Source: Acidobacteriota bacterium (GTDB lineage Bacteria; Actinomycetota; Acidimicrobiia; Spongiisociales; UBA11373). From it: 39,149 nt of DNA. The notes under the pieces are model-generated. The model did not search any database. It saw nothing but the letters and a program-made list of their open reading frames with translations, and had not been told where the DNA came from. The position numbers and the translations under genes are program-made. Location: positions 1 through 39,149 of the forward strand of contig JACZWZ010000002.1 in NCBI GenBank assembly GCA_022571885.1, read 5' to 3'. This document shows, one piece after another, positions 13,157 through 32,024 of this stretch; positions within the stretch are counted from its first letter, which is position 1, and every line of letters begins with the position of its first letter.

Positions 13157-13693
13157 ATGGATACCCAAGTGCCACCTGAATCCGGACCGGATCGTGCCGA
13201 AGCGTTTGTCCGCCGAATGGCGGACGAACACGGCGACGCTCTGTTTGGGTGGGCTCGCGGCAGATTCCAGGATCGACGGGACGCCGAGGAGGTCGTGTCC
13301 GAAACCCTGGTGAAGGCCTGGCGCAGCTACGGCCAGTTCGATCCGGTACGAGGAAGCGAACGAGCGTGGGTGTTTGCCATTCTCAAGACAACCGCGGTCG
13401 ACCACTACCGCAAGAGCAGCCGCCACCTCCGATCGGTGGCTCGGGACGAGGTAGCGGAGGACCCCATGGAGCTACCGGTGGACTCGCTGGCCGATTCGAC
13501 GCTGGTGCAAGACGGGCTCAGGTCGCTATCAGATCAACATCGTGAGGTTTTGGTTGCGGCCTACTTCGGTGGATACTCGATCAACGAGATAGCCGCGCTA
13601 TTCGGGATTCCCGACGGAACTGTCAAGTCGCGGATGTACTACGGAATGCGAGCCCTTCGGGCCGCCCTGGAGGAAAGAGGAGTTCTGGCATGA
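13157..13693 (+). CDS. ECF-type RNA polymerase sigma factor
   Basis: The protein has 178 residues, with sigma region 2 (about 18-85; RDAEEVVSETLVKAW and RAWVFAILKTTAVDHYRK) and region 4 (about 118-170; LSDQHREVLVAAYFGGYSI, then IAALFGIPDGTVKSRM). It is a group IV (ECF) sigma factor that redirects RNA polymerase to a stress or surface regulon. The stop overlaps the anti-sigma start by ATGA, the usual sigma/anti-sigma coupling. The start is weakly supported because the upstream 61-nt hairpin occupies the ribosome binding region; GTG 13169 is the alternative. Confidence 0.93.
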   Translation: MDTQVPPESGPDRAEAFVRRMADEHGDALFGWARGRFQDRRDAEEVVSETLVKAWRSYGQFDPVRGSERAWVFAILKTTAVDHYRKSSRHLRSVARDEVAEDPMELPVDSLADSTLVQDGLRSLSDQHREVLVAAYFGGYSINEIAALFGIPDGTVKSRMYYGMRALRAALEERGVLA

Positions 13694-14322
13694 CCGACCA
13701 CAGCGTGTTCCGCGGCTGGTCTGCCAGCTACGTCCTGGGAGCACTCGACTCGGCCGAGCGGCTCCAGTTCGAGGACCACCTCTCGCAGTGTGAGGAGTGT
13801 CGGCGCGAGGTCGCCGAGTTCGCTCCAATTCCCGGTCTCCTGGCCAAGCTCGACGGATACCAGTCCTCCCCGGCTCCGACAAGGGTGGCGAACATGGCTT
13901 CAGACCAGGTCCGGTCCGAATGGATGGCCTTGCAACGGAGCCGAAAGAGGTGGCGTTGGATCGCCTCGGCTGCGGCTGCGATAGCGGTGGTGACGATGGT
14001 CGCCTCCGCCCTGCCGAACTCCCGAGAGGAAACCGTTTGGGTAGTCGAATCATCCGTATCGGCGACCGGCACCATCCAGTTGCAGTCGCGCGCCTGGGGG
14101 ACCGCGATTCACCTCGATCTGGCCGACCTCCCGCCCCGGGAGGGATACATCGCTTGGGTCATCGACAACTCGGGCAATAAACAACAAGTCGCCGTCTGGG
14201 GACCCACCGACAGTGGAGTCGCCGTGCTCGATTCGACGTCGTCGGTGTCGCTGAACAACGTCTCGATCGTGGCAGTCACCGATCTCGAAGGGCAGGAACC
14301 ACTGCTCACCGCCGGAGGCTGA
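13690..14322 (+). CDS. Zinc-finger anti-sigma factor (RskA-like)
   Basis: The protein has 210 residues. The N-terminal ZAS-type zinc finger is His30-X3-Cys34-X2-Cys37, one transmembrane helix spans about residues 78-97, and the extracytoplasmic C-terminal domain has the RskA pattern (AVWGPTDSG and SVSLNNVSIVAVTDLEGQ). It should hold the sigma factor at the membrane until a signal triggers proteolysis or release. It overlaps the sigma gene by 4 bp. The outer domain probably senses an envelope cue. Confidence 0.92.
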   Translation: MTDHSVFRGWSASYVLGALDSAERLQFEDHLSQCEECRREVAEFAPIPGLLAKLDGYQSSPAPTRVANMASDQVRSEWMALQRSRKRWRWIASAAAAIAVVTMVASALPNSREETVWVVESSVSATGTIQLQSRAWGTAIHLDLADLPPREGYIAWVIDNSGNKQQVAVWGPTDSGVAVLDSTSSVSLNNVSIVAVTDLEGQEPLLTAGG

Positions 14323-19001: not shown

Positions 19002-20213
19002 CTAATTGGCGAACGCTCCAAGCGCCAGTGCTTCGGCGTAGAGCTCGAGCGGGTGGGCAACTCGAATTTCGTCACCGAGATGGCCCCGCAGTTGCATCTC
19101 ACAGCCCGGGTTGGCGGTCGCCACGGTCGAACACCCTGTGGCCAAGACCTCCGCCGCCTTGGCACTTCCCAGCGCGGCAGATGTCTCCGGCCGAAGAAGT
19201 GAGTACACCCCGGCGGCACCGCAGCACATGGCGGCCGGATCGACATCGATCGGCTCGTATCCGGCTGCGCGCAGAATGACCCTCGGTTCGTTGATCATGC
19301 GGAGTGCGTGCCGATGATGACAAGGATCCTGGACCGCCACCCGCTCTCCGGTCAGTTCCAGCGTGGGGAGTCTCCCGTCGGCGATCGCCTCAGCCACCAG
19401 CCGAAGCGCATCGACCGAACGCTCTTGCACCGCGGGAGCCTCCCAATGGCCGTAGCCGGCGAGGTGAGCGCTGCACCCGGCTGAATTGGAGACCACGAGA
19501 TCGACCCCGGCGAACGCCTCCTGATTCACCGCCGCCATCCGGAGGGCTTCATCGGCCGCCCCTTCATGAGCAGCCAGCGCCCCACAGCAGGTCTGCCCCT
19601 TAGGCACCACCACCCGGTATCCGGCCTTCTCCAGCAGCGCGATCGTGGCGTGGTGCACGCTGCCGAACCAGGGGTCCATCACACACCCGGCGAGCAGACC
19701 CACGGTCTCCCCGCCCCGCGACGAGTCGTACCCCAGCACACTCGAGCGACGAAATGGCAGGCGGCGCATTCCCTTCAGGCCGATGCGAAGGCGGCGTGGG
19801 ATGGCCCGTCGACCGACTCGCTGCGCCAGGGCCGCCCCCAACGAGACCAGAGAGACCATCCAACGCCTCCGTATCAAGCGACCAAACACACGAACCCGCA
19901 GTCGGCGACCACGAGGTCGTACTGCCGTCAACTCGGCGCGAGCTCCCTCCATCGCCCGGCCGAATGAGACCAGCGAAGGACAGGCGGCCTCACACGCCCG
20001 GCATTGGAGGCAGAAGGACATGACCTCGTCAAAGGCGTCATCGATCTCGACCAGTCCGGAGGCAACCGCCGACATCGCATTGAGCCTTCCACGCGGCGAT
20101 GCGGTCTCATCACCGGTGAGGCGATACGTCGGACAATGGGGAAGGCAGAGCCCGCATTCGATGCAAGCACTCAGCTCCTCCGACGTCGGCGCCCACCTGG
20201 TCGACCAGGGCAT
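19002..20213 (-). CDS. glcF: Glycolate oxidase iron-sulfur subunit
   Basis: The protein has 403 residues. Two 4Fe-4S motifs are visible (Cys17, 20, 23, 27 and Cys68, 71, 74, 78), followed by two CCG-type cysteine domains (QTCCGALAAHEG and AMCCGAAGVYSL). It passes electrons from the flavin subunits to the quinone pool. I chose the ATG at 20213 over an upstream TTG. It is the third gene of glcD-glcE-glcF, but a 154-bp gap with no gene and no clear signal separates it from glcE. In related operons glcF may serve lactate rather than glycolate. Confidence 0.92.
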   Translation of the reverse strand: MPWSTRWAPTSEELSACIECGLCLPHCPTYRLTGDETASPRGRLNAMSAVASGLVEIDDAFDEVMSFCLQCRACEAACPSLVSFGRAMEGARAELTAVRPRGRRLRVRVFGRLIRRRWMVSLVSLGAALAQRVGRRAIPRRLRIGLKGMRRLPFRRSSVLGYDSSRGGETVGLLAGCVMDPWFGSVHHATIALLEKAGYRVVVPKGQTCCGALAAHEGAADEALRMAAVNQEAFAGVDLVVSNSAGCSAHLAGYGHWEAPAVQERSVDALRLVAEAIADGRLPTLELTGERVAVQDPCHHRHALRMINEPRVILRAAGYEPIDVDPAAMCCGAAGVYSLLRPETSAALGSAKAAEVLATGCSTVATANPGCEMQLRGHLGDEIRVAHPLELYAEALALGAFAN

Positions 20214-20367
20214 CAGTGCCCCGACCGGCAATGCTTGTCGACTTCAGAACGCATATTGAAGCGCCGTCCAAAGGGCGGCACAATCATCCTGAGGAGTTCG
20301 AGACCGGGTAGCGCTCGAACGTCTGTGCCCAACCGCTGCCTCGTCCCGAACATCACCGGCCGGGACA

Positions 20368-21477
20368 TCAGAGATTCCCCGGGAGCCGGCCTGCAACCAG
20401 GACGTTCAGCGGATCGAACGCCGCCTTGATTCGACGTTGCAGATCGATGGTGGCCGGCGGAGTCCCCCACGGATCGATCTCCTCATAGACGGCCTGGGGA
20501 GCACGCTCGACCACAACCGCACCGCCTCCGGCCTCGGCCCGCTCTCGTAGGCCTTCGATTTCGGACGGGTCGACCGCGACGACAACCTCCCCCACCCCGT
20601 GGGCGGCCACGAAACTGTGTGCGGTCAGCGAGGTGACCACCAACGCCACATCGACCGGCGTCACCCGGATGCATACGACACATTCACCGGCCGGCTGATC
20701 CGGCCAGGAGTGTCCCGCGGTGACTTCGCCACCCACCGCGGCGGCCTGCGCCTCGACCTCGGCGGCGGTCCCGGCCAGGTACACCGAAACCCCATCCGGC
20801 GTTTCGAGCACCGCCTGCGGTCGGTGGGTGACGGCCAGCGCTCGATCAGGATCATCGGTGGCAACGGTGGCCAAGGCTTCGGGGACCGGCCACAGCTTCA
20901 GGCAGACCGAGGTGATGATCCCGAGCGATCCGAAGGACCCTGTAAGGAGACGGGGGAGATCGTATCCGGTGACGTTCTTCACTACCCGGGCACCACCTGT
21001 GACCACCCTCCCGTCACCGGTGACGAATTTCACCTGGAGCAGGCGGTCCCGAGTCGGTCCGTAACGGAGTCTTTTCCATCCGGAGACTCCTGCCGCTATC
21101 ACCCCGCCGATCGTCGCCTCGGGCGAAGTCTCGGGAAGAATCGCCGACTGCCGTCGGGTCCAGATCTGGTCGTGCAACAGGCCCAACGTCGCACCGCTTC
21201 CGAGCACCACCGTGAGATCGTCGGGAATCCATTCGGTGATGCCGGCGAGACGGCTGGTGGAGACGATCACATCAGGGTCGATGCGACCTCCGAACCCCTG
21301 ATGCCGCCCGCTTCCCCATGGGAGGACGGTGAGGCCGTGCTCCGATGCGAAGTCGAGCAGCGTGGCGATCTGTTCAGCGGATTCGGGTGCCACGCTCAGA
21401 TCTGCCGCCGGTGCACCGTCGATTTCGATCGCCGATCCTCCTACAAGCTTGCCGAGAGTGGAGCGGAGTCCGGTCAC
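20368..21477 (-). CDS. glcE: Glycolate oxidase FAD-binding subunit
   Basis: The protein has 369 residues from GTG 21477. It has the PCMH-type FAD domain in short form: VLPWGSGRHQGFGG, the segment from SPEATIGGVIAAG to RYGP, then VKNVTGYDLPRLLTGSFGSLGIIT. It is the second flavoprotein of the glycolate oxidase complex. Its start overlaps the glcD stop as GTGA, which decides the start over the TTG six bases earlier and implies coupled translation. Confidence 0.92.
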   Translation of the reverse strand: MTGLRSTLGKLVGGSAIEIDGAPAADLSVAPESAEQIATLLDFASEHGLTVLPWGSGRHQGFGGRIDPDVIVSTSRLAGITEWIPDDLTVVLGSGATLGLLHDQIWTRRQSAILPETSPEATIGGVIAAGVSGWKRLRYGPTRDRLLQVKFVTGDGRVVTGGARVVKNVTGYDLPRLLTGSFGSLGIITSVCLKLWPVPEALATVATDDPDRALAVTHRPQAVLETPDGVSVYLAGTAAEVEAQAAAVGGEVTAGHSWPDQPAGECVVCIRVTPVDVALVVTSLTAHSFVAAHGVGEVVVAVDPSEIEGLRERAEAGGGAVVVERAPQAVYEEIDPWGTPPATIDLQRRIKAAFDPLNVLVAGRLPGNL

Positions 21478-22901
21478 AGCCAAGCGCCCTCGGGGATCGG
21501 CCGCCCAAAATCGAAACAGCGAGCACCTGCCGGAAGGATCTTCTTCGGATTCATCGTCGCCTCCGGATCGAAGGCGTCCCTCAACCGTGCCTGGGCGTCG
21601 AGGTCCACCGGGGAAAAGACCAGGTGCATCAGATCGCGTTTCTCCTGGCCGATCCCGTGCTCGCCCGACAGCACTCCCCCGGCCGCGATCGAAATCTCGA
21701 CGATCTCATCTGCCGCCTGGTTCACCTGAGTCACCGCCTCGGGATCGCTGGCATCGAAGGCGAACAACGGGTGAAGGTTTCCGTCGCCGGCATGGATCGT
21801 GTTGAGAACCACCAGGTTGCGCCGCTCGGCGATCTGGTAGATCTGCTCGAGGACTTCGACCAGCTTGGTTCGAGGGATCACGGTGTCGTGGAGGTAGTAG
21901 TCGGGTGCGATTTGGGCGATTGCCCCAAACGAGGACTTACGGGCCTTCCACAGCAGTTCTCGCTCATCGGCATCGGCGGCACGTCTCAACTGAAAGGCCC
22001 CGTGGTCGGTAGCGATTCGCTCGATCAACTCGGCCTCGACATCCACTCCAGCCTCGTGACCAACGACTTCGGCCAGTAACACCACAGCCGCATCGACCGG
22101 CAGGTCGGCGTGGACGAAGTTCTCGACCGCCCGGATGAGCGGTTGGTCCATCATCTCCAATGCAGCCGGCACGACACCGGACGCGATCACATCCGTGACG
22201 GTGGCGGCTGCTCCTCTGACTTCGGGGAAAGCTATCAGAAGGGTGCGAATCGCAGGCGGATTGGGGATCAGCTTCACCAGGATTCGGGTGATGATCCCAA
22301 GAGTTCCCTCGGATCCAACCATCACCCCGCGCACGTCGAGTCCCGGCGGATCGGGGGCGCCGGACCCGGCCACGACTATCTCACCACCGGCGGTGACGAA
22401 TTCGACGGCCAGGACATGGTTAACGGTCGAGCCTTCAGCCAGGCAGTGCGGACCTCCGCTGTTGTTGGCGACGTTGCCGCCGATGGTGCAAGCCGCTTGT
22501 GAGGACGGATCGGGGGCGAAGTGGATTCCCAGCGAAGCCGTCTGGTTGGACAGATCCAGATTGATGACACCGGGCCCCACCCAGGCAGTCCGATTGGCAG
22601 CATCGACATCGACCTGATCCATCCGGGTGGTCACCAGCAGGATCGCCGGACCCTCAGGTACTGCTCCCCCGGTCAAGCCGGTGCCGGCTCCGCGGGGAAC
22701 GACCGCCAAGCCGTGAGCCACCGCGGTGCGGACGATGGAGGCAACCTGGCGAGCCGTCCTGGGGAGCACCACCACCGAGACCTCGCCGCGTATAACGCCG
22801 GCATCCTTGCTGTAGAGATGTCGATCGAGGTCGCCGGACTTCACCGCCTCCGCACCGACGATCGAAGCCAGTTCGGATACCAGGGCATTGCTCAAACCCA
22901 T
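21474..22901 (-). CDS. glcD: Glycolate oxidase catalytic FAD subunit
   Basis: The protein has 475 residues. The PCMH FAD-binding domain (about 35-215) contains PRGAGTGLTGGAVP and IGGNVANNSGGPHC, and the C-terminal FAD-oxidase domain carries the active-site stretch GGVLSGEHGIGQEKR. It oxidises glycolate (or D-lactate-like hydroxyacids) to the oxoacid. The ATG at 22901 has no ribosome binding site but has a TAGGCT box 9 nt upstream, so a leaderless transcript within the 3' end of the MFS gene is likely. With glcE and glcF it forms a full membrane-associated complex for using photorespiratory or algal glycolate. Confidence 0.94.
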   Translation of the reverse strand: MGLSNALVSELASIVGAEAVKSGDLDRHLYSKDAGVIRGEVSVVVLPRTARQVASIVRTAVAHGLAVVPRGAGTGLTGGAVPEGPAILLVTTRMDQVDVDAANRTAWVGPGVINLDLSNQTASLGIHFAPDPSSQAACTIGGNVANNSGGPHCLAEGSTVNHVLAVEFVTAGGEIVVAGSGAPDPPGLDVRGVMVGSEGTLGIITRILVKLIPNPPAIRTLLIAFPEVRGAAATVTDVIASGVVPAALEMMDQPLIRAVENFVHADLPVDAAVVLLAEVVGHEAGVDVEAELIERIATDHGAFQLRRAADADERELLWKARKSSFGAIAQIAPDYYLHDTVIPRTKLVEVLEQIYQIAERRNLVVLNTIHAGDGNLHPLFAFDASDPEAVTQVNQAADEIVEISIAAGGVLSGEHGIGQEKRDLMHLVFSPVDLDAQARLRDAFDPEATMNPKKILPAGARCFDFGRPIPEGAWL

Positions 22902-22910
22902 AATGGACCG

Positions 22911-22916
22911 AGCCTA
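22911..22916 (-). promoter_or_regulatory. Leaderless-type -10 box TAGGCT (glcD)
   Basis: TAGGCT on the minus strand is 9 nt from the glcD ATG. It lies in the 23-bp gap behind the MFS stop and gives the glc genes their own start point. Confidence 0.5.
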
Positions 22917-22924
22917 CCGGTAGG

Positions 22925-24130
22925 TCATTCGGCACCACGTTGACTGATCCGCCTGCCGAGTCTCCGCAGCGGCATCCAGGTGACGGCAATGACGCCCATC
23001 ACCGCGGCACCGGCGAAGTAGGCACGCCGATCACCGATCGAGTCGGCAAGGGCGGTACCGCCGGCCGGACCGGCGAACTGGCCCACCCGGTTGGCCGAGA
23101 CCCAAGTCCCCACCAGCATGCCTCGGTAATGAGCCGGGCCGACGCTGGCCGAGTAGTCCTGGAGAAGCGGAAAGATCGACCCGGTTGCCAAGCCGAGCAG
23201 GATCAGGCCGAGCGATAGCACCCACAGGGACGGGGCGAGCCCGATCACTGTGAATCCCACAACCATGAAGGTGAAGGCGGATGTGAGCACCTGCCGAGGC
23301 GTGTACAGAGATCCAACGCGGCCACTCAACACGGATGCCAAGCTGCTGGAGGCGGACAGAATCGCAGCCACCAATCCACGCTGCGACACGCCGAGTCCGA
23401 ATTCGCGCTCTAGGAACAGCGGAAGCACGGTGAGGCCGAGCCCGAGGAACACCCCGAGAGTGATCAGCGACATCGGGAGCACACCGAGGAAATCGCTGCG
23501 CTTGCCCTCCCTCTTGAGGAGTTGCATGGCCTCGCGCAGATGTCGAAATGGGGGTGACGGCTTGGTTGCGCCCTTTGGATCCGGCAACCGTCGCGCCATG
23601 ACGAAGACCGGGAAGGCCAAGAAGAAGATGAGGAAAGGTCGGAAGGCGCCTCCCTCGGCGATGAATCCGCCGGCGATCGGAGCCAAGGTCGTCGTCATGG
23701 TGAGCGCTGCCAGATTGATACCCATCGCCCAACGCCGCTCGATCCCGGTAAACAGATCTCCGATGAGAACGACGCCGAGGCTGAGCAGGCCGCTGGTGCC
23801 GAGACCCTGCAGGATGCGAAACCCCACCAGAACCCAGTAGGAGCGAGCAAAGAAGCAGGCCAGACCAAAGACCCCGAAGATGATCAACGACACCCGGATC
23901 ACGCGCCGCCGACCGAACCGATCGGCCAGATATCCGATGTAAGCAGCCAGGAAGATGCCGGGGATGGCTACCGCCCCCTGCACCAGACCGATCGAGCCTC
24001 TGGAGACGCCGAGTTCTTCGGCAAGGTCCGGCAGTACCGGAGCAATGATTGCAAAGGCGAGCACGCCCATCCCGGTAACCGTGACGATGAGGGGTAGCAG
24101 CCGCCGTGGGTCCAGCTCGGTCTGAGGCAT
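22925..24130 (-). CDS. MFS transporter (DHA1-like)
   Basis: The protein has 401 residues and twelve predicted helices. The signature between helices 2 and 3 is present (GYLADRFGRRRVI), as is the helix-5 motif region (GTSGLLSLGVVLIGDLF). The best resemblance is to drug/proton antiporters, but its place directly ahead of glcDEF leaves open a role in hydroxyacid import or export. The ATG at 24130 is preceded by TAGGGT at 9 nt and no ribosome binding site. It is divergent from the large regulator gene across 213 bp that hold no other gene. Confidence 0.9.
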   Translation of the reverse strand: MPQTELDPRRLLPLIVTVTGMGVLAFAIIAPVLPDLAEELGVSRGSIGLVQGAVAIPGIFLAAYIGYLADRFGRRRVIRVSLIIFGVFGLACFFARSYWVLVGFRILQGLGTSGLLSLGVVLIGDLFTGIERRWAMGINLAALTMTTTLAPIAGGFIAEGGAFRPFLIFFLAFPVFVMARRLPDPKGATKPSPPFRHLREAMQLLKREGKRSDFLGVLPMSLITLGVFLGLGLTVLPLFLEREFGLGVSQRGLVAAILSASSSLASVLSGRVGSLYTPRQVLTSAFTFMVVGFTVIGLAPSLWVLSLGLILLGLATGSIFPLLQDYSASVGPAHYRGMLVGTWVSANRVGQFAGPAGGTALADSIGDRRAYFAGAAVMGVIAVTWMPLRRLGRRISQRGAE

Positions 24131-24139
24131 TGGCGGCGC

Positions 24140-24145
24140 ACCCTA
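24140..24145 (-). promoter_or_regulatory. Leaderless-type -10 box TAGGGT (MFS gene)
   Basis: TANNNT lies 9 nt before the MFS ATG on the minus strand, the same geometry as in front of glcD and the regulator. Confidence 0.5.
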
Positions 24146-24328
24146 CCGTCGGTCACAACGGCTCTGGACGGACCCCAGACTGCAACATTTGCCGCATACA
24201 CAGCGGCCAGTGACCTCCCCGGCTGCGTCCTCGTCCTTGAAGTACGTGAGGTGCGAAGTCGTCCGAGGGTCCTGCGTGAGGCATCCCCTGCTTCGCCCGG
24301 AACATCACCAACGTCGCCGGCCACTGGC

Positions 24329-24334
24329 TACCGT
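24329..24334 (+). promoter_or_regulatory. Leaderless-type -10 box TACCGT (regulator gene)
   Basis: TANNNT lies 9 nt before the regulator ATG at 24344, with no ribosome binding site in between. It supports that ATG over the longer open frame starting at 24251. Confidence 0.45.
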
Positions 24335-24343
24335 TTCACACGC

Positions 24344-27300
24344 ATGGAACAACTGGAAATTCGCCTGCTGGGGGGCTTCCAGCTCGGCCGCGATGGACGG
24401 GTGCTCGAGCAGTTGCCGCTACGTGCCGCCCGGTCGCTGTTTGCGTTCCTGGTCCTGAATCGGGAGCGCGCCCACACTCGCGACCTCCTTGCCGGGACCT
24501 TCTGGCCCGACTTCGATGAGGGCCGAGCCCGCCGGCGTTTGAGTCAGGCTCTCTGGCAGACGCAGAGATCACTGGGCGAAGATGACGGACAGCGCTACCT
24601 GATCGGCACCCCCGACACGATCCGCTTCAACCCGGATGCCGACTTTTGGCTCGACATCGACGAGTTTCTCGCCGCGCTCGACGAGGCTGCCGAGGCAGAC
24701 CGGTCGGGAGAGACCGAGGCTCTCACCAGGGCCGTCGAGCTCTACCGGGGCGATCTCCTCGCCGGCTTCTACGACGACTGGCTGTTCCCCGATCAGTCTC
24801 AGTTGAGGACCAAGTTCCTCGTAGCACTCGAGCGGCTGGCCGATCTGGCCATGGCTCGCGGTGACTACGAAACCGCACTCTCCCTGGCGCGACGGCTGGC
24901 GCAGGAGAATGAGTTCGACGAAGAGGCCCACCGACGAGTGATGAGGATCGCGGTCCTGCTCGGCCGACACAACGAGGCGCTGCGCCAGTTCGAAGAGTGC
25001 CGTCGGATCCTCGCTGAGGAACTGGGCACCGAACCGTCAGCCGAGACGGTGGATCTTTACGAGGCGACACTGGCGGATCGCGATGCCGGCGGACGACCGT
25101 TGCCGTCACACGAGGAGTCTCCGTTGTTCGGCGACGCCGAGGCGGCGCCTTTCGTCGGTAGAGAGACGGAACGAGCCCGTTTTGCCCAGCGGCTCGATGA
25201 GGTTCTAGAGGGTAGGGGTGGCATCGTACTGGTCGAGGGTGAGTCCGGTGTCGGCAAGACCCGCCTGCTGCGCGAGGTTGCTGACGATGCCCGGTGGCGC
25301 GGCATGGACGTCATCTGGGGACGGTCCTCCCCGAGTGGCGGGCGGCCGTTCGGACCGATCGGCGATGCACTGCGAACCGGTTTGAGCGACCTGCGAATCC
25401 GTCAGTTGCAGGGACGACTGGACGACACCCGAATCGCGACCCTGGCTCCCCTCATCCCGCGACTTGCTCCCGACGCAGCCCCAGAGGTCGCCATGGGAAT
25501 GGCCGACGAGCAGGCGCGGATGCACGAGGCGATCGGGGCCGCCTTCCAAGGTCTGGCTGCGACCAATCCGACCCTCGTGGTCCTCGAGGACGTCCATTGG
25601 GCGGATGAGGACACCATCCAGACGCTGTCGCAGTTGGCGCTGCGAATTCACGACCAAAGGATCCTGTTCGCCGTCACCTACCGCCACGGTGAGGCGAGAG
25701 AGCGATCCGAGGTGTGGGATCTTCTCCGAGGCTTAGACCGCCTGGAACATTGCGAGCGAATCTCGCTGGCGGCCCTCACCCCGGCCCAGGCCGAAGAACT
25801 CATCCGCAAGAGTCTGGGAATTGCTGAGGTGAGTGGAGGATTCTCCGAGCGGCTCCACCGAGAGACCGGTGGAATCCCACTCTTCATTGTGGAGACGCTC
25901 AGGGCTCTCTATGAGCGGGATTCGCTTGGCGAAGCTGAAGCACCGGCTGAAGACGCCCCGCTAGTCGGTGATCGACTCCCGGTCACCCCAACCGTTCACT
26001 CGCTCATCCGACACCGCCTTGAATCTCTCGGGAACAGCTCACGCCGCACGCTCGAATTGGTGGCGTCCCACGATGGCGTTCTCCTCCTCACAGAAGTCGT
26101 CGATGCGTCCGAACTCGCCGACGCGGCAGCGTTGGAGGCCATCGACGACCTCCAGCGAAGACGCTTCATCGGTGGCAACGAAACAGGCTTCTCTCTCGAA
26201 CACGAACTCGTCCGCCGAGTTGTCTACGACGACCTACCGACGTCGAGACGTCTTGATCTCCATCGCCGAATTGCCCAGGCAGTCGAATCACATCGGCCCG
26301 AAGAGGTTGAGATCCTTGCCCATCACTTCGTCACTGCCCGAATGCCCGATCGTGCCGCCATTTTCCTCGAGAGATCAGCCGAAAAGGCTATGTCTGTCCA
26401 TGCTTATGACACCGCTGCGCAGCACCTCGAGCACGCCTCCAAGGCACTGGACGAGATCGATGCTTCCGACAGTCGTCGCTACGTAGTGGCGGCACTCCAT
26501 GAGGAGGTTCTCGACGTCCTCGGGCGAAGAGACGATCAAGAACTCGTGCTGAGACGATTGAGTAGGTTCGCCAGCGAAAGCGAACGGGGTGAGGTCATCC
26601 GCCGACGAGCATGGTGGCTCGCTCATCAGGACCGGTTTGAGGAAGCCGAGAGCGAAGCGGGCAAGGCTCTCGATGCAGCCCGCAAATCCAAAGAATCTGG
26701 ACCGATCGTTGCGGCGCTCACTGCCCTAGGCATGATCGCCTGTTATGGCGGCCGCGCCGCAGATGGTGTGTTGCACCTTGAAGAAGCCGCCGAGTACCGA
26801 GATACCGACATCCAGCAAGAGGCAAACGCACGAAATGCGCTCGGACAGAACCTGATCGACCTCCAGCGATTCGGCGAAGCTGAGTCGCAACTCCTCGCCG
26901 CATTGAATCTGTATACCGAGATTGGGGACGCGAGGGGACAAGCCGAAGCTCTAGGCACACTCGGCACGCTCCGAATGGAACGCGGAGAGCCTGAAAGCGC
27001 CGAGACGGACCTCATGCGTGCCCTGGAGATCTCACACCGCGTTGGCTACCGGCATGGTGGAGCTGTCTACCGAATGAACTTGGCGATTCTCCAGATCATC
27101 ACAAACCGTCTCGACGCGGCTCTTGAATCGTTCGAGAAGGCCGAGGAGTCCTATGCAGCACTCGGGAACAGCCGCGGCAAGGCTCTCGTTCTCTCGAATG
27201 TCGCTTGGCTATGGCACGGCTTGATCGGTGACGACGAGAGGGCTCAGAGGCAAACCGCTGAGGCTCTTTCGATCTATGAGGAAATCGGTGATTCGCGAGG

Positions 27301-28153
27301 TATCGCTCAGTGCTTGGGGTTGTTGGGCAGTCTCGCCGGTCGCGCTGGAGACCTTGAGACGGGGCAAGCCCAGTTCCGGGAAGCGCTGGCACTCACGCGG
27401 GAATCTAAAGACTCGTGGCTCACGGCTCAAACCCTTCGAGAATTGGCTGCCATCGAATTTGAGAACGACACGATTGATGAAGGGGTCGAGCACATTCTCG
27501 AGGCAGAAGCTATCTGTCGAGAGTTCGGAATGAATGACCTCCTTGTTGGTATCCGCGCCCTTGCAGGTCGGTTAACCCTCAGAGCCGGTAGGCCGGATGA
27601 GGCCCTTGATTGGGCCACGAAGGCCATGCGAGAGATACGACCGGGAGTCGAACTAGCCCACCTCGTACCCCTGGCTCTGAGCGAAGTTCATGGCGTTCTC
27701 GGAAACGATGAGGAGGCCGCACACCACATCACCCTCGCACATGAACAGCTCACCTTGATGCTCGGCGCCCTCGATGAAGATCTCCAGGAGCAATCGTGGA
27801 GTCACATCCCCAACCACCACGCCATCCAGGCTCGTTGGTCCGCGCTACAGCCCAGGAGAGAAATCTTCAAACTGCCCTCGACAAACGCGCCACTCGGCCG
27901 GGCACCACGAGATGACGAGTACATCGACGTCTCCTGGGCCGTTCACGAGCCCGCTGATGAGCGAATCGTCGATCCCATTGAACGGCGGAGACGCCAGGTC
28001 GTCAGGCTTGTGAACGAGGCCAATGAAGCGGGTGCGAGTCCAACAATCGTTCATCTAGCCGAGGCATTGGACTCGAGCGAAGCGACGATTCGTCGAGATC
28101 TGGCGGCGCTTCGCTCTGAGGGATACGCGATTCTTACCCGCGGTAGTCGGTAA
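24344..28153 (+). CDS. SARP-type regulator with AAA ATPase, TPR array and C-terminal DeoR-like HTH
   Basis: The protein has 1269 residues. In order: an N-terminal OmpR-like winged helix (about 1-95) and a bacterial transcriptional activator domain (about 100-250), the SARP pair; an ATPase with Walker A GESGVGKT (299-306) and Walker B TLVVLEDVHWAD (410-421); a long TPR region (about 755-1130); and a C-terminal winged helix (about 1210-1269) whose EALDSSEATIRRDLAALRSEGY matches DeoR-type HTHs. AfsR/MalT-like STAND regulators bind a ligand through such repeats and oligomerise with ATP. Having DNA-binding domains at both ends is unusual, because the C-terminal HTH is normally LuxR-type or absent. 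The secreted-peptide gene follows 105 bp downstream; a weak hairpin (28158-28172) lies between. Confidence 0.9.
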   Translation: MEQLEIRLLGGFQLGRDGRVLEQLPLRAARSLFAFLVLNRERAHTRDLLAGTFWPDFDEGRARRRLSQALWQTQRSLGEDDGQRYLIGTPDTIRFNPDADFWLDIDEFLAALDEAAEADRSGETEALTRAVELYRGDLLAGFYDDWLFPDQSQLRTKFLVALERLADLAMARGDYETALSLARRLAQENEFDEEAHRRVMRIAVLLGRHNEALRQFEECRRILAEELGTEPSAETVDLYEATLADRDAGGRPLPSHEESPLFGDAEAAPFVGRETERARFAQRLDEVLEGRGGIVLVEGESGVGKTRLLREVADDARWRGMDVIWGRSSPSGGRPFGPIGDALRTGLSDLRIRQLQGRLDDTRIATLAPLIPRLAPDAAPEVAMGMADEQARMHEAIGAAFQGLAATNPTLVVLEDVHWADEDTIQTLSQLALRIHDQRILFAVTYRHGEARERSEVWDLLRGLDRLEHCERISLAALTPAQAEELIRKSLGIAEVSGGFSERLHRETGGIPLFIVETLRALYERDSLGEAEAPAEDAPLVGDRLPVTPTVHSLIRHRLESLGNSSRRTLELVASHDGVLLLTEVVDASELADAAALEAIDDLQRRRFIGGNETGFSLEHELVRRVVYDDLPTSRRLDLHRRIAQAVESHRPEEVEILAHHFVTARMPDRAAIFLERSAEKAMSVHAYDTAAQHLEHASKALDEIDASDSRRYVVAALHEEVLDVLGRRDDQELVLRRLSRFASESERGEVIRRRAWWLAHQDRFEEAESEAGKALDAARKSKESGPIVAALTALGMIACYGGRAADGVLHLEEAAEYRDTDIQQEANARNALGQNLIDLQRFGEAESQLLAALNLYTEIGDARGQAEALGTLGTLRMERGEPESAETDLMRALEISHRVGYRHGGAVYRMNLAILQIITNRLDAALESFEKAEESYAALGNSRGKALVLSNVAWLWHGLIGDDERAQRQTAEALSIYEEIGDSRGIAQCLGLLGSLAGRAGDLETGQAQFREALALTRESKDSWLTAQTLRELAAIEFENDTIDEGVEHILEAEAICREFGMNDLLVGIRALAGRLTLRAGRPDEALDWATKAMREIRPGVELAHLVPLALSEVHGVLGNDEEAAHHITLAHEQLTLMLGALDEDLQEQSWSHIPNHHAIQARWSALQPRREIFKLPSTNAPLGRAPRDDEYIDVSWAVHEPADERIVDPIERRRRQVVRLVNEANEAGASPTIVHLAEALDSSEATIRRDLAALRSEGYAILTRGSR

Positions 28154-28258
28154 ACCACTCACCGCGCGTGAGCGCTCAGTTTCTTGTACTCCTTTAGATA
28201 ACGCCGAGAGAGGCCGATCTCATTCTCCAGACATCACGACTACGTGAGGGAGAGACAA

Positions 28259-28357
28259 ATGCGGAATCGGCTCACAGTCCTGGCGCTCACAATCGCCACG
28301 TTCCTTGCCCTCTGGGCACAACCGGCGCTCGCCATCTGGCGACCGGGCCACAGCTAA
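28259..28357 (+). CDS. Small secreted peptide precursor (32 residues)
   Basis: ATG at 28259 follows a strong GAGGGAGAG ribosome binding site at proper spacing and opens 32 codons ending in TAA. The product has a textbook Sec signal: positive MRNR, a hydrophobic core of about 16 residues, then QPALA, an Ala-X-Ala signal peptidase I site after residue 25. Only IWRPGHS remains after cleavage. It lies 105 bp behind the large TPR regulator on the same strand, which suggests an exported signal peptide sensed by that regulator. It could instead be a leader of no function or a membrane mini-protein. No known peptide family is recognised. ORF and signal are seen; the role is inferred. Confidence 0.6.
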   Translation: MRNRLTVLALTIATFLALWAQPALAIWRPGHS

Positions 28358-28492
28358 AGAGATTTCCGCCCTCCGGGTTCGCTCGGGGAGACGGCTAGCT
28401 CCCGGCGGAAGCGGTTCGCCTCGACCGTCGGGAAATACAACATAGACCGGTTGACGTACGCCCAGGGGCTTTCCGGTCACCCCTACCGAGTT

Positions 28493-28514
28493 GATCCCCG
28501 GATGACCGGGGATC
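28493..28514. terminator. Perfect 9-bp hairpin between convergent genes
   Basis: GATCCCCGG (28493-28501) pairs with CCGGGGATC (28506-28514) around a 4-nt loop and overlaps the hyuB stop codon. It could stop both the rightward peptide transcript and the leftward hyu transcript. There is no strong T-run on either strand, so it is called by stem strength and location. Confidence 0.5.
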
Positions 28515-30069
28515 ACTCATTTCTCGGTCCCCAGCCACCCCCACCAGGAGTAAGCACTCGCAGGCGATCACCGCCGGACACCTCAAAGGTCGTCTTGCCA
28601 GGCACCCTTTCTTCGGCGCCACCGGCACGCCTCAACCAGTCCTCTCCGCATGCGCCCGGCTCACCACCGGCCAACCCCCATGGTCTTATCCGGCGGCGCT
28701 CCCCCATCAGAGACACCGTGGCCGCCTCCAGAAACTCGATCTCACGGATGATCCCTTCGCCGCCGTGATGCAGGCCTCTGCCTCCACTGCCAGATCGCAG
28801 ACCCGTCTCATGCACCCGAAATGGATAGTGAGATTCGAGTGACTCGATCGGCGTGTTCTTGGTGTTGGTCATCCCGGTGTGAATCCCCGACTGGCCGGCG
28901 CGATGAGGTGTCGCTCCCTCACCTCCGGCGATCGTCTCGTAGTACACGAAACGGTCCGACCCGATGAGGATGTTGTTCATCGTTCCCTGTGATGCAGCCG
29001 GCACCCGATCGGGAGCCGCCTGCGCCAATGCACCGAGCAGGACATCGGCAATCCTCTGGCTCGTCTCCACGTTTCCGGCAGCGACCGCAACCCCATCTCG
29101 CGCCGACACGATCGAGCCCGGCTCGGTAACGAGTTCGAGCGGCCGATAGCACCCGCCATTGGTCGGAATGGTCGGGTCGGTCGCCACCCGGACGGCGTAG
29201 TAGAGGCACGATCGAGTGACCGCATCGACTGCGTTGAAGTTGGCTTCGATTTGTGGCGAGCTCCCACTGAAGTCGGCCACCAGGCGATCGCCGTCGATCC
29301 CCACCAACACCTCGATCGGAATATCGCGATCACCAAACTCCATGGCGTCGGCAAACCGGTACTCGCCGTCGGGGAGCGCCTGTAGTGCCGAGCGCATCCT
29401 CGCTTCGCCGTAATCGAGCAGTGCACCGGCAATGGCGTCGAACCGGTGCCGACCGTGGCCTCCAATGACCTCGCTGAGGCGAACTGCCCCGGCCTCGTTG
29501 GCGCCGAGCTGTGCCGAGAGATCGCCGACTCGCTCGTCGGGGGTGCGGGTCGCATCAACGAAAGCCTCGAAGAAGTTACGCTCCCACTCACCACCGACGA
29601 CGGCGACCGTCGGCGGCACAACATGTCCTTCCTGCTCGAGTCGGGTGGCGTGAGCCGGCATCGAACCCGGTGCCTCTCCTCCGACGTCGGCATGGTGAGC
29701 CCGATTGGCCACCCATCCCACCAGCGTGCCGTCGAAGTGGACGGGACGAACCAACGTCAGATCATTGAGATGGGTCCCACCCGCATACGGATCGTTGACC
29801 GCGAACTGGGTGCCCGGATCTACGTCCGAACCGAATACCTCGAGCACGGCGGCCACCGAAGCCGGCATCGACCCGAGATGAACCGGGATGTGCTCGGCCT
29901 GAGCCAGCATCTCCCCGTCGGCCACGAACACCGCCGCCGAGCAGTCCGCTCGCTCCTTGATGTTCGGTGAGTAGGCGGTCCGGCGCAGCACCGCGCCCAT
30001 CTCCTCGGCCACAGACGAGAGACGATTCCGAGCCACTTCGAGCGTGACCGCGTCCACCGGCCTCACCAC
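28513..30069 (-). CDS. hyuB: Hydantoinase B / oxoprolinase subunit
   Basis: The protein has 518 residues, the usual length for N-methylhydantoinase/5-oxoprolinase B. Typical segments are the N-terminal RLSSVAEEMGAVLRRTAYSPNIKER, then GDPYAGGTHLND-like (here NDPYAGGTHLNDLTLV), AHHADVGGEAPGSMP and the C-terminal GGGGWG. With HyuA it opens hydantoin or 5-oxoproline rings using ATP. Two adjacent GTGs are possible starts (30069 or 30066); the second gives a GTGA overlap with the hyuA stop. The exact substrate cannot be deduced. Confidence 0.93.
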   Translation of the reverse strand: MVRPVDAVTLEVARNRLSSVAEEMGAVLRRTAYSPNIKERADCSAAVFVADGEMLAQAEHIPVHLGSMPASVAAVLEVFGSDVDPGTQFAVNDPYAGGTHLNDLTLVRPVHFDGTLVGWVANRAHHADVGGEAPGSMPAHATRLEQEGHVVPPTVAVVGGEWERNFFEAFVDATRTPDERVGDLSAQLGANEAGAVRLSEVIGGHGRHRFDAIAGALLDYGEARMRSALQALPDGEYRFADAMEFGDRDIPIEVLVGIDGDRLVADFSGSSPQIEANFNAVDAVTRSCLYYAVRVATDPTIPTNGGCYRPLELVTEPGSIVSARDGVAVAAGNVETSQRIADVLLGALAQAAPDRVPAASQGTMNNILIGSDRFVYYETIAGGEGATPHRAGQSGIHTGMTNTKNTPIESLESHYPFRVHETGLRSGSGGRGLHHGGEGIIREIEFLEAATVSLMGERRRIRPWGLAGGEPGACGEDWLRRAGGAEERVPGKTTFEVSGGDRLRVLTPGGGGWGPRNE

Positions 30070-32024
30070 GCCACCTCCAACGCACCCGACTCGTGAACCA
30101 CAGCGCGCTCTCCCGGGCCGAGATAGCTGGTGGCCTCCGGCTCCTCGATGATCGCCGGACCGACGATCTCAGTCCCCACCGCCAGGTCGGGACGCCACCA
30201 CACCGTTGCCTTGCCGGGCCCGTCCGGAAGCAGCACCATTCGATCCGCTCGCCGGGCATCGCCACCTCCCCGGTGGGCGGGAAGCTGCTCGAACGTGAGC
30301 GCGGGACGTCCGGTTGCAGCCGCTCTCACCGCAATCACCTCTACCGGGTCGCCGGTACGAGCGAATCCGTTGCGATCAAAGTGGGCCAGGTGGAATCTAT
30401 CGGCGAGCGCCGCCCAGCCATCTCCCGGGTCATACGTGATCGAGGTCTCGTGGGATTGACCGCGATACCTCACATCGACGGTGCATTCGACCGCCACCGG
30501 CACCGAACCGGCATCGCTGAGGTCGGAAACGGCGGTTTTGCGCACCGCCTGCACCGCACCGTCGAGATCGCCACCGGGTTCTAGAAGCACCCCCATCACC
30601 GAGTCGGAGCGCGGCGGCGCCAGCAGCAGGCCAAGGGCCGAGAACACCCCGGCATGCGGCGCAACGATCACACCGGCCATGTCGAGATGTCGGGCTAGGG
30701 CAGTCGCGTGCATTCCTCCGGCACCGCCGAAGGCCACCAGAACCGAGTCCCGAGGGTCGGCACCCTCCTCCACCGAAACGACCCGGATCGCCCGCTCCAT
30801 ATGCGACTCGACCACCTCGAGGATGCCTCCAGCGGTGTCGGCGGACGACAGGCCGAGAGCGTCGCCGATCCGGACGACCGCCCCCTGGGCCAAATCCAGG
30901 TCCAGCGCCAGGGCTTCGCCCAGCGAAGCTCCTCCGGCGAGACGACCTACGACCAGATTGGCATCGGTAACCGTCGGATTGATCCCACCCCGGCCATAAG
31001 CAGCAGGGCCGGGAATCGCGCCGGCGCTGCGGGGTCCGACCCGAAGAGCCCCACCCGGATCTACCCAGGCGAGGCTCCCACCTCCGGCACCGACCGTGTG
31101 GATCGCCACCGAGGGCAGTCGATTTGGAAGCCCACCGACGGGCCTTTCGAACATGACCTGCGGCCGACCATCGGTGATCCGACACACATCGGTGCTGGTC
31201 CCACCCATGTCGAACGAGATCAGAGATGACTTGCCGAGAGACGTCCCAAGGGCTGCGGCAGCAACAACGCCTCCGGCCGGGCCCGACAGGACGATCGATG
31301 CCGGCAGACGGGCCGCCGCCGCCAAACCGATCAGACCGCCCGAACTACGCATCACGGACGGAGCACCGGTCACCCCCACGTCGGAAAGAGAAGCACCGAG
31401 CCGGCCCAGATAGCGGGCCATGGTCGGCTGTAGATAAGCGTTGATCACCGTGGTCGAGATCCGCTCGAATTCGCGAAACTCCGGAGCCACCCTCGAGGAG
31501 AGCGAAATCGCGGCCTCGGGCAGAATCTCGGCGACGGCAACGCCCAGCGCCTCTTCGCGTGACGGGTCGAGGAACGAGAACAGGGTGCCGATCGCAACCG
31601 CATCCGGAGCCAGATCCTCCAGTGCCGCCACGGCTTCTCTGAAGTCGAGCCCACCGGAGCCCGTGGCGTCGAACGATCGGCGAGGTACTCCCACCCTGTA
31701 GCTCGACTCGACCAGGGGCTGCGCCCTGGTGACCGCGACGTCGTAGAGCGAAGGTCGATCCTGGCGCCCGATCTCGATCAGGTCCTCGAACCCGGCGTCG
31801 GTGACCAGTGCAGTCCGAGCCCCGGTCCGCTCCAGCAAGGCGTTGGTGGCGACGGTGGTGCCGTGAATCATCTCGTTCGTAGTAGCGTCCGTCGATCGCA
31901 AGACCTCGATGACACCTTTGCTCTGGTCCTCCGGCGTGGTCGGTACCTTGGCGGTCCTGAGCCGCGCACCATCCCACAGCACCAGATCGGTGAATGTGCC
32001 TCCGACGTCGACCCCGGCTCGCAC
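30063..32024 (-). CDS. hyuA: Hydantoinase A / oxoprolinase subunit
   Basis: The protein has 653 residues. The N-terminal ASKHA phosphate loop GVDVGGTFTDLVLWDG is followed by HGTTVATNALLERTG and the second ATP motif SFDMGGTSTDVCRI. The internal GAGGGSLAWVDPGGALRVGPRSAG is characteristic of HyuA. It phosphorylates and opens the cyclic amide together with HyuB. It starts with GTG without a clear ribosome binding site. The two genes form a self-contained operon; no racemase or carbamoylase is adjacent. Confidence 0.94.
   Translation of the reverse strand: MRAGVDVGGTFTDLVLWDGARLRTAKVPTTPEDQSKGVIEVLRSTDATTNEMIHGTTVATNALLERTGARTALVTDAGFEDLIEIGRQDRPSLYDVAVTRAQPLVESSYRVGVPRRSFDATGSGGLDFREAVAALEDLAPDAVAIGTLFSFLDPSREEALGVAVAEILPEAAISLSSRVAPEFREFERISTTVINAYLQPTMARYLGRLGASLSDVGVTGAPSVMRSSGGLIGLAAAARLPASIVLSGPAGGVVAAAALGTSLGKSSLISFDMGGTSTDVCRITDGRPQVMFERPVGGLPNRLPSVAIHTVGAGGGSLAWVDPGGALRVGPRSAGAIPGPAAYGRGGINPTVTDANLVVGRLAGGASLGEALALDLDLAQGAVVRIGDALGLSSADTAGGILEVVESHMERAIRVVSVEEGADPRDSVLVAFGGAGGMHATALARHLDMAGVIVAPHAGVFSALGLLLAPPRSDSVMGVLLEPGGDLDGAVQAVRKTAVSDLSDAGSVPVAVECTVDVRYRGQSHETSITYDPGDGWAALADRFHLAHFDRNGFARTGDPVEVIAVRAAATGRPALTFEQLPAHRGGGDARRADRMVLLPDGPGKATVWWRPDLAVGTEIVGPAIIEEPEATSYLGPGERAVVHESGALEVAW

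Follow-up and report, generated by a model that had tools for sequence, protein, structure and literature searches.

A large SARP regulator and an adjoining short secreted-peptide gene: a putative peptide-signalling pair in the Acidimicrobiia

A stretch of 39,149 nucleotides from contig JACZWZ010000002.1 (positions 1 to 39,149; assembly GCA_022571885.1) of an Acidobacteriota bacterium that GTDB places in the class Acidimicrobiia of the Actinomycetota (the whole stretch is hereafter the window), encodes a 1269-residue regulator with an N-terminal SARP region, an ATPase module, an array of TPR repeats and a C-terminal DeoR-type helix-turn-helix (HTH) domain. Directly behind it, on the same strand, lies a 32-codon open reading frame (ORF) for a signal peptide followed by seven residues. 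Judged from sequence comparison, the two genes probably form a peptide-signalling module in which the SARP/STAND regulator activates the secreted-peptide gene and senses the peptide after its re-import. The pairing is conserved among relatives of the source organism, the small gene is under purifying selection, its promoter carries repeats of the kind bound by SARP regulators, and the TPR array resembles those that bind peptides.

The peptide gene and its conservation

The precursor gene (28259..28357, + strand; ATG at 28259, TAA ending at 28357) begins 105 bp 3' of the regulator and encodes MRNRLTVLALTIATFLALWAQPALA-IWRPGHS, a predicted Sec signal peptide that ends in ALA and is followed directly by IWRPGHS. 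Translation from a GTG at 28244, farther upstream, would lengthen the precursor by five residues. A purine-rich ribosome binding site, GAGGGAGAG, is located at 28246..28254 (+), where many homologs have AGGAGG. The ORF, the ribosome binding site, the signal peptide and the heptapeptide tail had all been described in a sequence-only reading of this DNA, and all are seen in the sequence. The proposed mature peptide, IWRPGHS (28334..28354, +), is delimited by a predicted AxA-type cleavage site and by conservation of the tail, for which relatives have IWRPGHN, ILRPGHP, ILRPGH, TWKPGHG, and TWRPGHG. No NCBIfam family was found for the window peptide, and no known RNA of Rfam lies within 24000-28700.

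Homologous regulators were gathered from relatives within the order, from the class, and from the phylum (46 loci; three more loci were fetched later). A signal-peptide ORF was defined as one of 26-38 codons with a basic N-terminus, a hydrophobic core, and an AxA-like site 4-8 residues before its end; Sec-type signals on the precursors were thus assigned by rule only. Such an ORF was located on the same strand behind 44 of the 46 regulators; the definition also fitted 3 of 220 control sites, located at the ends of different long ORFs, and 29 of 1840 Markov-shuffled versions of this DNA. Some of the control frames may not be genes, so the control is a rough one, but the contrast is clear. All three held-out loci fit the definition, with tails GTAYMT, GVANLGF, and GIRNIGF. 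The sequence-only reading had called for this comparison, expecting a mini-ORF with a signal peptide and a variable but present C-terminal heptapeptide; the loci agree with this, their tails varying in sequence. Neither of the patterns it had named as contrary, regulators retained without the mini-ORF or a mini-ORF free of purifying selection, was what we found.

The conserved mini-ORFs have 28-34 codons (mostly 30-32 amino acids), lie 56-291 bp behind the regulator stop codon, and end 5-7 residues after the AxA-like site; the tail is six residues long in 32 of 47 loci and seven in most others. Among related mini-ORFs the ratio of non-synonymous to synonymous change (pN/pS) was 0.28 overall and 0.15 between the window and its closest relative, and changes at codon positions 1, 2, and 3 numbered 349, 160, and 759. 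The ratio was similar in the tail (0.39) and the signal part (0.33); the residues at the cleavage site and the length of the tail are preserved, and the hydrophobic core drifts. By these measures the mini-ORF is a coding sequence under purifying selection, the selection that the sequence-only reading had anticipated.

In the window's family each genome has one peptide gene, which adjoins the regulator wherever the contig reaches, and no extra copies were found. Most of the compared genomes are drafts, and the source genome is itself incomplete (2.79 Mb in 228 contigs). Behind BTAD regulators that have no DeoR-type end (L050, L051, L054-L057) no such ORF was found; the peptide gene therefore does not accompany SARP genes in general.

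Probable control of the peptide gene

A candidate SARP-type operator, CTTTAGATA-acgc-CGAGAGA-ggCCGA, was located at 28192..28217 (+) with its heptamers at 28194-28200 and 28205-28211, a pitch of 11 bp (p = 0.005 against shuffles). It is the only perfect site in its own genome. A candidate -10 element, CATTCT (28221..28226, +), follows 9 bp past the second heptamer. Across the homologous loci, direct heptamer repeats of the form TGAGAYA-n4-NGAGACA, again with an 11-bp pitch, were present in 36 of 46 intergenic regions (p < 0.05 against shuffles; L043 marginal), and the aligned consensus of these 36 loci has an ATnCT -10-like element 9-10 bp downstream of the heptamers. In published SARP promoters the direct repeats are spaced at 11 or 22 bp, and the 3' one lies 8 bp from the -10 element (PMC10936776; PMC10972967), and the layout found here agrees with direct repeats so spaced near a -10. 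Each of six genomes from the window's family (f1) has a single copy of the operator in the form CTTTAGATA-n4-CGAGAnAnRCCGA, and in every case it precedes the peptide gene. Given this layout and its placement at peptide promoters, control of the peptide gene by the regulator is very probable; binding of the protein to the sites we infer.

A wider regulon was sought in the same six genomes, where the operator, with up to three mismatches allowed, was found only at the peptide promoter; no output beyond autoregulation is thus visible in the window's family. The stricter pattern GAGAYA-n5-GAGACA gave five matches in ten genomes. Two of them, in G659 and G635, belong to peptide promoters; another two, in G410 and G432, precede the gene upstream of the regulator, and the fifth (G040:C71) lies elsewhere. 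At the loci in G410 and G432 (L120 and L121), the repeat reads GAGACA-n5-GAGACA and stands some 1.3 kb 5' of the regulator, in front of a gene for a membrane protein, which in G432 has an EAL domain. Its position there suggests, on sequence grounds, a cyclic di-GMP output in that genus.

An upstream 12-mer, TGAGCGCAAGGT (the TGAGCGC element), stands 24 or 33-36 bp 5' of the first heptamer in many loci (L009, L014, L038-L041, L045, L048, L092, L094, L096, L097, L135, L136). It mostly coincides with the regulator stop codon but is present also where the stop lies elsewhere, and it is likely a third operator half-site. Additional matches to TGAGCGCAAGGT in G003 and G040 were rejected as regulon sites; they fall inside coding frames. 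In the subclade with AVVNIR tails (L019, L021, L022, L027, L031), another shared element, approximately CTGTAG-K-TTTTTTCG-n-TTnTGCCGATT, replaces the GAGACA repeats.

The regulator as candidate receptor

The putative receptor is encoded at 24344..28153 (+, stop included), from an ATG at 24344 to a TAA at 28151-28153; an in-frame GTG upstream, at 24251, would give 1300 residues instead of 1269. Its SARP region (24344..25066, +) comprises an OmpR-like winged HTH (about residues 1-100), recognized by similarity to AfsR and EmbR, and a BTAD domain (residues 103-241; E 2.4e-23), the N-terminal combination by which the SARP family is defined. The N-terminus matches AfsR (8k60; AfsR residues 27-370 aligned) and EmbR (2fez). 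The AAA_16, STAND-like ATPase module (residues 269-433; 25148..25642, +; Pfam E 1.3e-24) is followed by the TPR array (TPR_12 in six stretches, E 2.3e-25), the STAND-type order of ATPase module and helical-repeat sensor. Length and TPR array had been noted from the sequence alone, and ORF and Pfam agree with both. The DeoR-type HTH is an addition to that description: it occupies residues 1234-1266 (28043..28141, +; Pfam HTH_DeoR, E 4.4e-5, over the cutoff) and is followed by the conserved regulator end TRGSR, whose R, T, and G columns are kept across 28 homologs. This C-terminal end (28043-28153) supplies a second DNA-binding-like domain. Regulator homologs are 36-85% identical over the full length; in the nearest relative from a named collection, an Acidimicrobiia metagenome-assembled genome, identity in the regulator is 85%. 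The NCBIfam AfsR equivalog model NF053617 scored 99.3 bits on the regulator, below its cutoff of 1430, and by domain content the protein is a large SARP and not AfsR.

An AlphaFold2 model of residues 642-1269 contains a confident TPR superhelix (predicted local distance difference test, pLDDT, mostly 70-94), with the C-terminal part poorly modelled. The superhelix, about residues 642-1120 (26267..27703, +), is the proposed peptide-binding domain. TPR-peptide complexes of LGN/Pins were among its best matches in both Foldseek and profile searches, and the same profile matches the TPR region of AfsR (E 9e-19). Asn912 is kept in 41 of 41 homologs and Asn952 in 39 of 41, at equivalent positions of adjacent repeats, and in the profile alignment both coincide with the Asn of LGN's NLG motif. 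In LGN and in kinesin light chain, an Asn at that position touches the peptide backbone. The model and the alignments together place the array with the peptide-binding type, most like LGN/Pins, and ligand binding is predicted.

Co-variation of peptide and TPR surface had been proposed as a further check on the pairing. Tail dissimilarity tracked TPR distance once the ATPase domain was corrected for (partial r 0.19, equalled in none of 500 permutations), and signal-peptide dissimilarity did not (-0.10). We count this as weak support, because the tail also tracks the ATPase domain given the TPR (0.14) and because relatedness inflates such tests. In the correlation set the tail of L090 was printed as WAVVNMG; the actual site is AWA-VVNMG.

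Tail classes and exceptions

Tails such as ILRPGH, AVVNIR, SISDMS, NGDWGV, and GIKNLGL fall into classes that follow regulator clades. RPGH types belong to the window's family and G-x-x-N-x-G-x types to family f67; further classes are S-x-x-D/N/L/F-M-S/T, AVVNIR/L with AVLNML, GDFHR, and x-x-x-W-G types. Genomes with two regulators have two different tails: AVVNIR is accompanied by NGDWGV in G020, DANWGN in G027, NVNWGT in G033, and DGVWGG in G040.

Two loci are exceptions. L047 (G005) has an IS3-like insertion: the ORF stops after MRRRIAFVALTAAT, next to the ORF of an integrase-type transposase on the opposite strand. At L010 (G008) the signal peptide is missing; a perfect Shine-Dalgarno sequence precedes ATG-CTG-CGC-CCC-GGA-CAC, the start of an ORF encoding MLRPGHGPS. 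This ORF begins 87 bp past the regulator's stop codon, and the operator has been retained intact. The L010 sequence could mean that the peptide now serves as a self-signal within the cytoplasm, or that the gene has begun to decay, a choice that a single case does not decide.

Proposed mechanism and alternatives

The proposed order of events is as follows: the SARP regulator would bind the 11-bp direct-repeat operator that overlaps the promoter of the mini-gene and recruit RNA polymerase, as AfsR structures and the site layout suggest. The pre-peptide would pass through Sec, and signal peptidase would cut after AxA to give a free peptide of 6-7 residues. The peptide would then be re-imported, plausibly by an Opp/Dpp ATP-binding cassette importer; two loci with oligopeptide-type binding proteins (SBP_bac_5) are present in the source genome. 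Once in the groove of the TPR superhelix, it would free the autoinhibited ATPase/SARP part, and its own transcription would rise in positive feedback. Output past the peptide gene would be lineage specific, reaching the EAL-domain membrane gene in one genus and signalling genes behind the peptide gene elsewhere. The response may depend on cell density. The quorum- or self-sensing unit with a SARP-class receptor that was originally put forward is upheld as regards the conserved pair and its selection, and it is strengthened by two findings that it did not contain, the operator and the peptide-binding type of the TPR array; cleavage, export, re-import, binding, and density response are its inferred parts.

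Several observations weigh against this signalling module. The pair is patchy: at the thresholds applied, 34 of 345 genomes of the class and 15 of 396 of the phylum have it. The operator of the window's family is confined to the peptide gene, with no wider output visible, and the canonical repeat is absent from some subclades, those with the tails AVVNIR, AVLNML, TGDFHR, and AHGNWG. The L010 locus may be no more than a remnant in decay, and the correlation between tail and TPR is weak.

The main rival, which our analysis makes unlikely, holds that the peptide is an output and not a ligand: the regulator would sense ATP, another metabolite, or phosphorylation, and the peptide would act as an effector on the envelope, on another receptor, or on other organisms. 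Such an arrangement would share the AfsR-afsS layout, a large SARP activating an adjacent small gene through two 11-bp repeats, and it would predict what was seen in six genomes, where the peptide gene is the sole operator target found. It fits less well with paralogs that keep distinct tails within one genome, with tail distances that follow TPR distances better than signal-peptide distances do, and with the leaderless LRPGH of L010, which would be a cytoplasmic peptide.

Quite improbable, in our estimate, is a sensor of export state, in which unprocessed precursor in the cytoplasm would bind the regulator under Sec limitation and the pair would monitor secretion or membrane state, not density. 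The domains of the receptor place it in the cytoplasm, regulator and tail are both conserved, and L010 would be a cytoplasm-locked form. A tail of 6-7 residues behind a near-constant AxA site looks built for release, however, and the neighbouring genes that were inspected included no sec gene downstream. We give very little credence to a membrane microprotein, an uncleaved hydrophobic helix as the functional part with the tail as its exposed end. The hydrophobic segment is conserved and pN/pS is alike in tail and signal part, but the cleavage site and tail length are held constant as the core drifts, and L010 keeps the tail and loses the helix. Finally, a chance ORF without function was rejected: 32-codon ORFs are common in GC-rich DNA, but the contrast with controls and shuffles, the held-out loci, and the purifying selection leave this explanation a negligible share.

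On a broader scale, we lean slightly towards an independently evolved class of peptide pheromones in the Actinomycetota, in which SARP/STAND receptors would both control and sense their own secreted peptides of 5-7 residues, with many specificities (RPGH, NIR, DMS, NWG, N-L/M-G-L) and with orthogonal paralog pairs in one cell. Quorum sensing in this phylum is described as typically based on small molecules (PMC10075063), and a 2016 review mentions no quorum sensing reported for the class Acidimicrobiia or Nitriliruptoria (PMC4748050). Our searches of open-access papers turned up no SARP described as having its own secreted peptide; the sequence-only reading likewise knew of no such unit. If the proposal is true, a subfamily of large SARPs that comes with a dedicated gene for an exported peptide, itself under a private operator, would offer concrete candidate ligands for the SARP sensor domain, and the sensing of secreted peptides by TPR repeats would have arisen outside the Bacillota as well, with another kind of regulator as its scaffold. 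Several peptide specificities would be ready for comparison, and the SARP ligand question would become open to synthetic hexapeptides.

Genomic context

Between the peptide gene and the hydantoinase B gene downstream, a hairpin, GATCCCCGGATGACCGGGGATC (28493..28514), is a likely terminator. The hydantoinase B gene is convergent, and the mini-gene thus stands alone. Hydantoinase A/B genes occupy 28513-32024 (-), a place that, by sequence resemblance, is kept in G003, G006, and G009. Upstream of the regulator, at 19002-24130 (-), is a glycolate-oxidase-like operon (two FAD-binding subunits and a CCG/4Fe-4S subunit) with an MFS transporter. Farther upstream (13157-14322, +), an extracytoplasmic function (ECF) sigma factor, identified by Pfam, precedes a putative anti-sigma factor, for which a zinc-finger-like CEECRRE motif was recognized by eye. 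No common neighbouring target gene was found; neighbours vary between lineages. Same-strand signalling genes behind the peptide gene include histidine kinases at L128 (G015) and L127 (G017) and a PAS-domain protein at L129 (G018), and at L092 (G659) an H-box sequence, SHELRTPLTVIRG, lies directly behind the peptide.

Comparison with known systems

MalT-type STAND regulators and SARP-LALs such as PimR likewise combine a DNA-binding module, an ATPase, and a TPR-like sensor array, and the heptamer repeats to which SARP-LALs bind are separated by 4-nt spacers (PMC10972967). Unlike the pair described here, their known inducers are small molecules, and they have no dedicated exported peptide gene. 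The nosiheptide SARP NosP reportedly responds to ligands derived from a precursor peptide, to go by the title of a 2018 report by Li et al. (cited in PMC10972967); these ligands are the thiopeptide and its intermediate, in contrast to a dedicated secreted signal peptide.

The AfsR-afsS system of Streptomyces is similar in having a large SARP with ATPase and TPR modules, with homologous SARP and TPR regions, which activates an adjacent small gene via two 11-bp direct repeats near the -10 element. AfsR, the large SARP studied most thoroughly, is inhibited by its own NOD/TPR part; in 2024 the existence of an inducer for it was still described as elusive (PMC10936776). It has an NB-ARC/NOD module and no C-terminal HTH, whereas the regulator here has AAA_16 and a DeoR-type HTH. 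AfsS has been described as a small sigma-factor-like regulator (PMC10972967); the adjacent gene here, at 47 loci, encodes instead a signal peptide plus 5-7 residues.

The RRNPP(A) systems of the Bacillota (Rap-Phr, PlcR-PapR, NprR, arbitrium AimR) share the order of a TPR regulator gene directly followed by a propeptide gene for a signal of 5-7 residues, with a Sec-type export signal that is a predicted one in the pair described here. Published ranges for RRNPP systems are 250-500 amino acids for the receptor and 10-100 for an adjacent propeptide within -60 to 400 bp (PMC10075063). The precursors described here, of 28-34 amino acids at 56-291 bp, fall within the propeptide ranges, and the TPR repeats are present. 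The regulator is nevertheless not an RRNPP member, because 1269 residues lie far outside the receptor range and because its architecture is another: SARP and AAA modules in place of an Xre-type HTH, in a host belonging to the Actinomycetota, with a tail that would be freed by signal peptidase alone.

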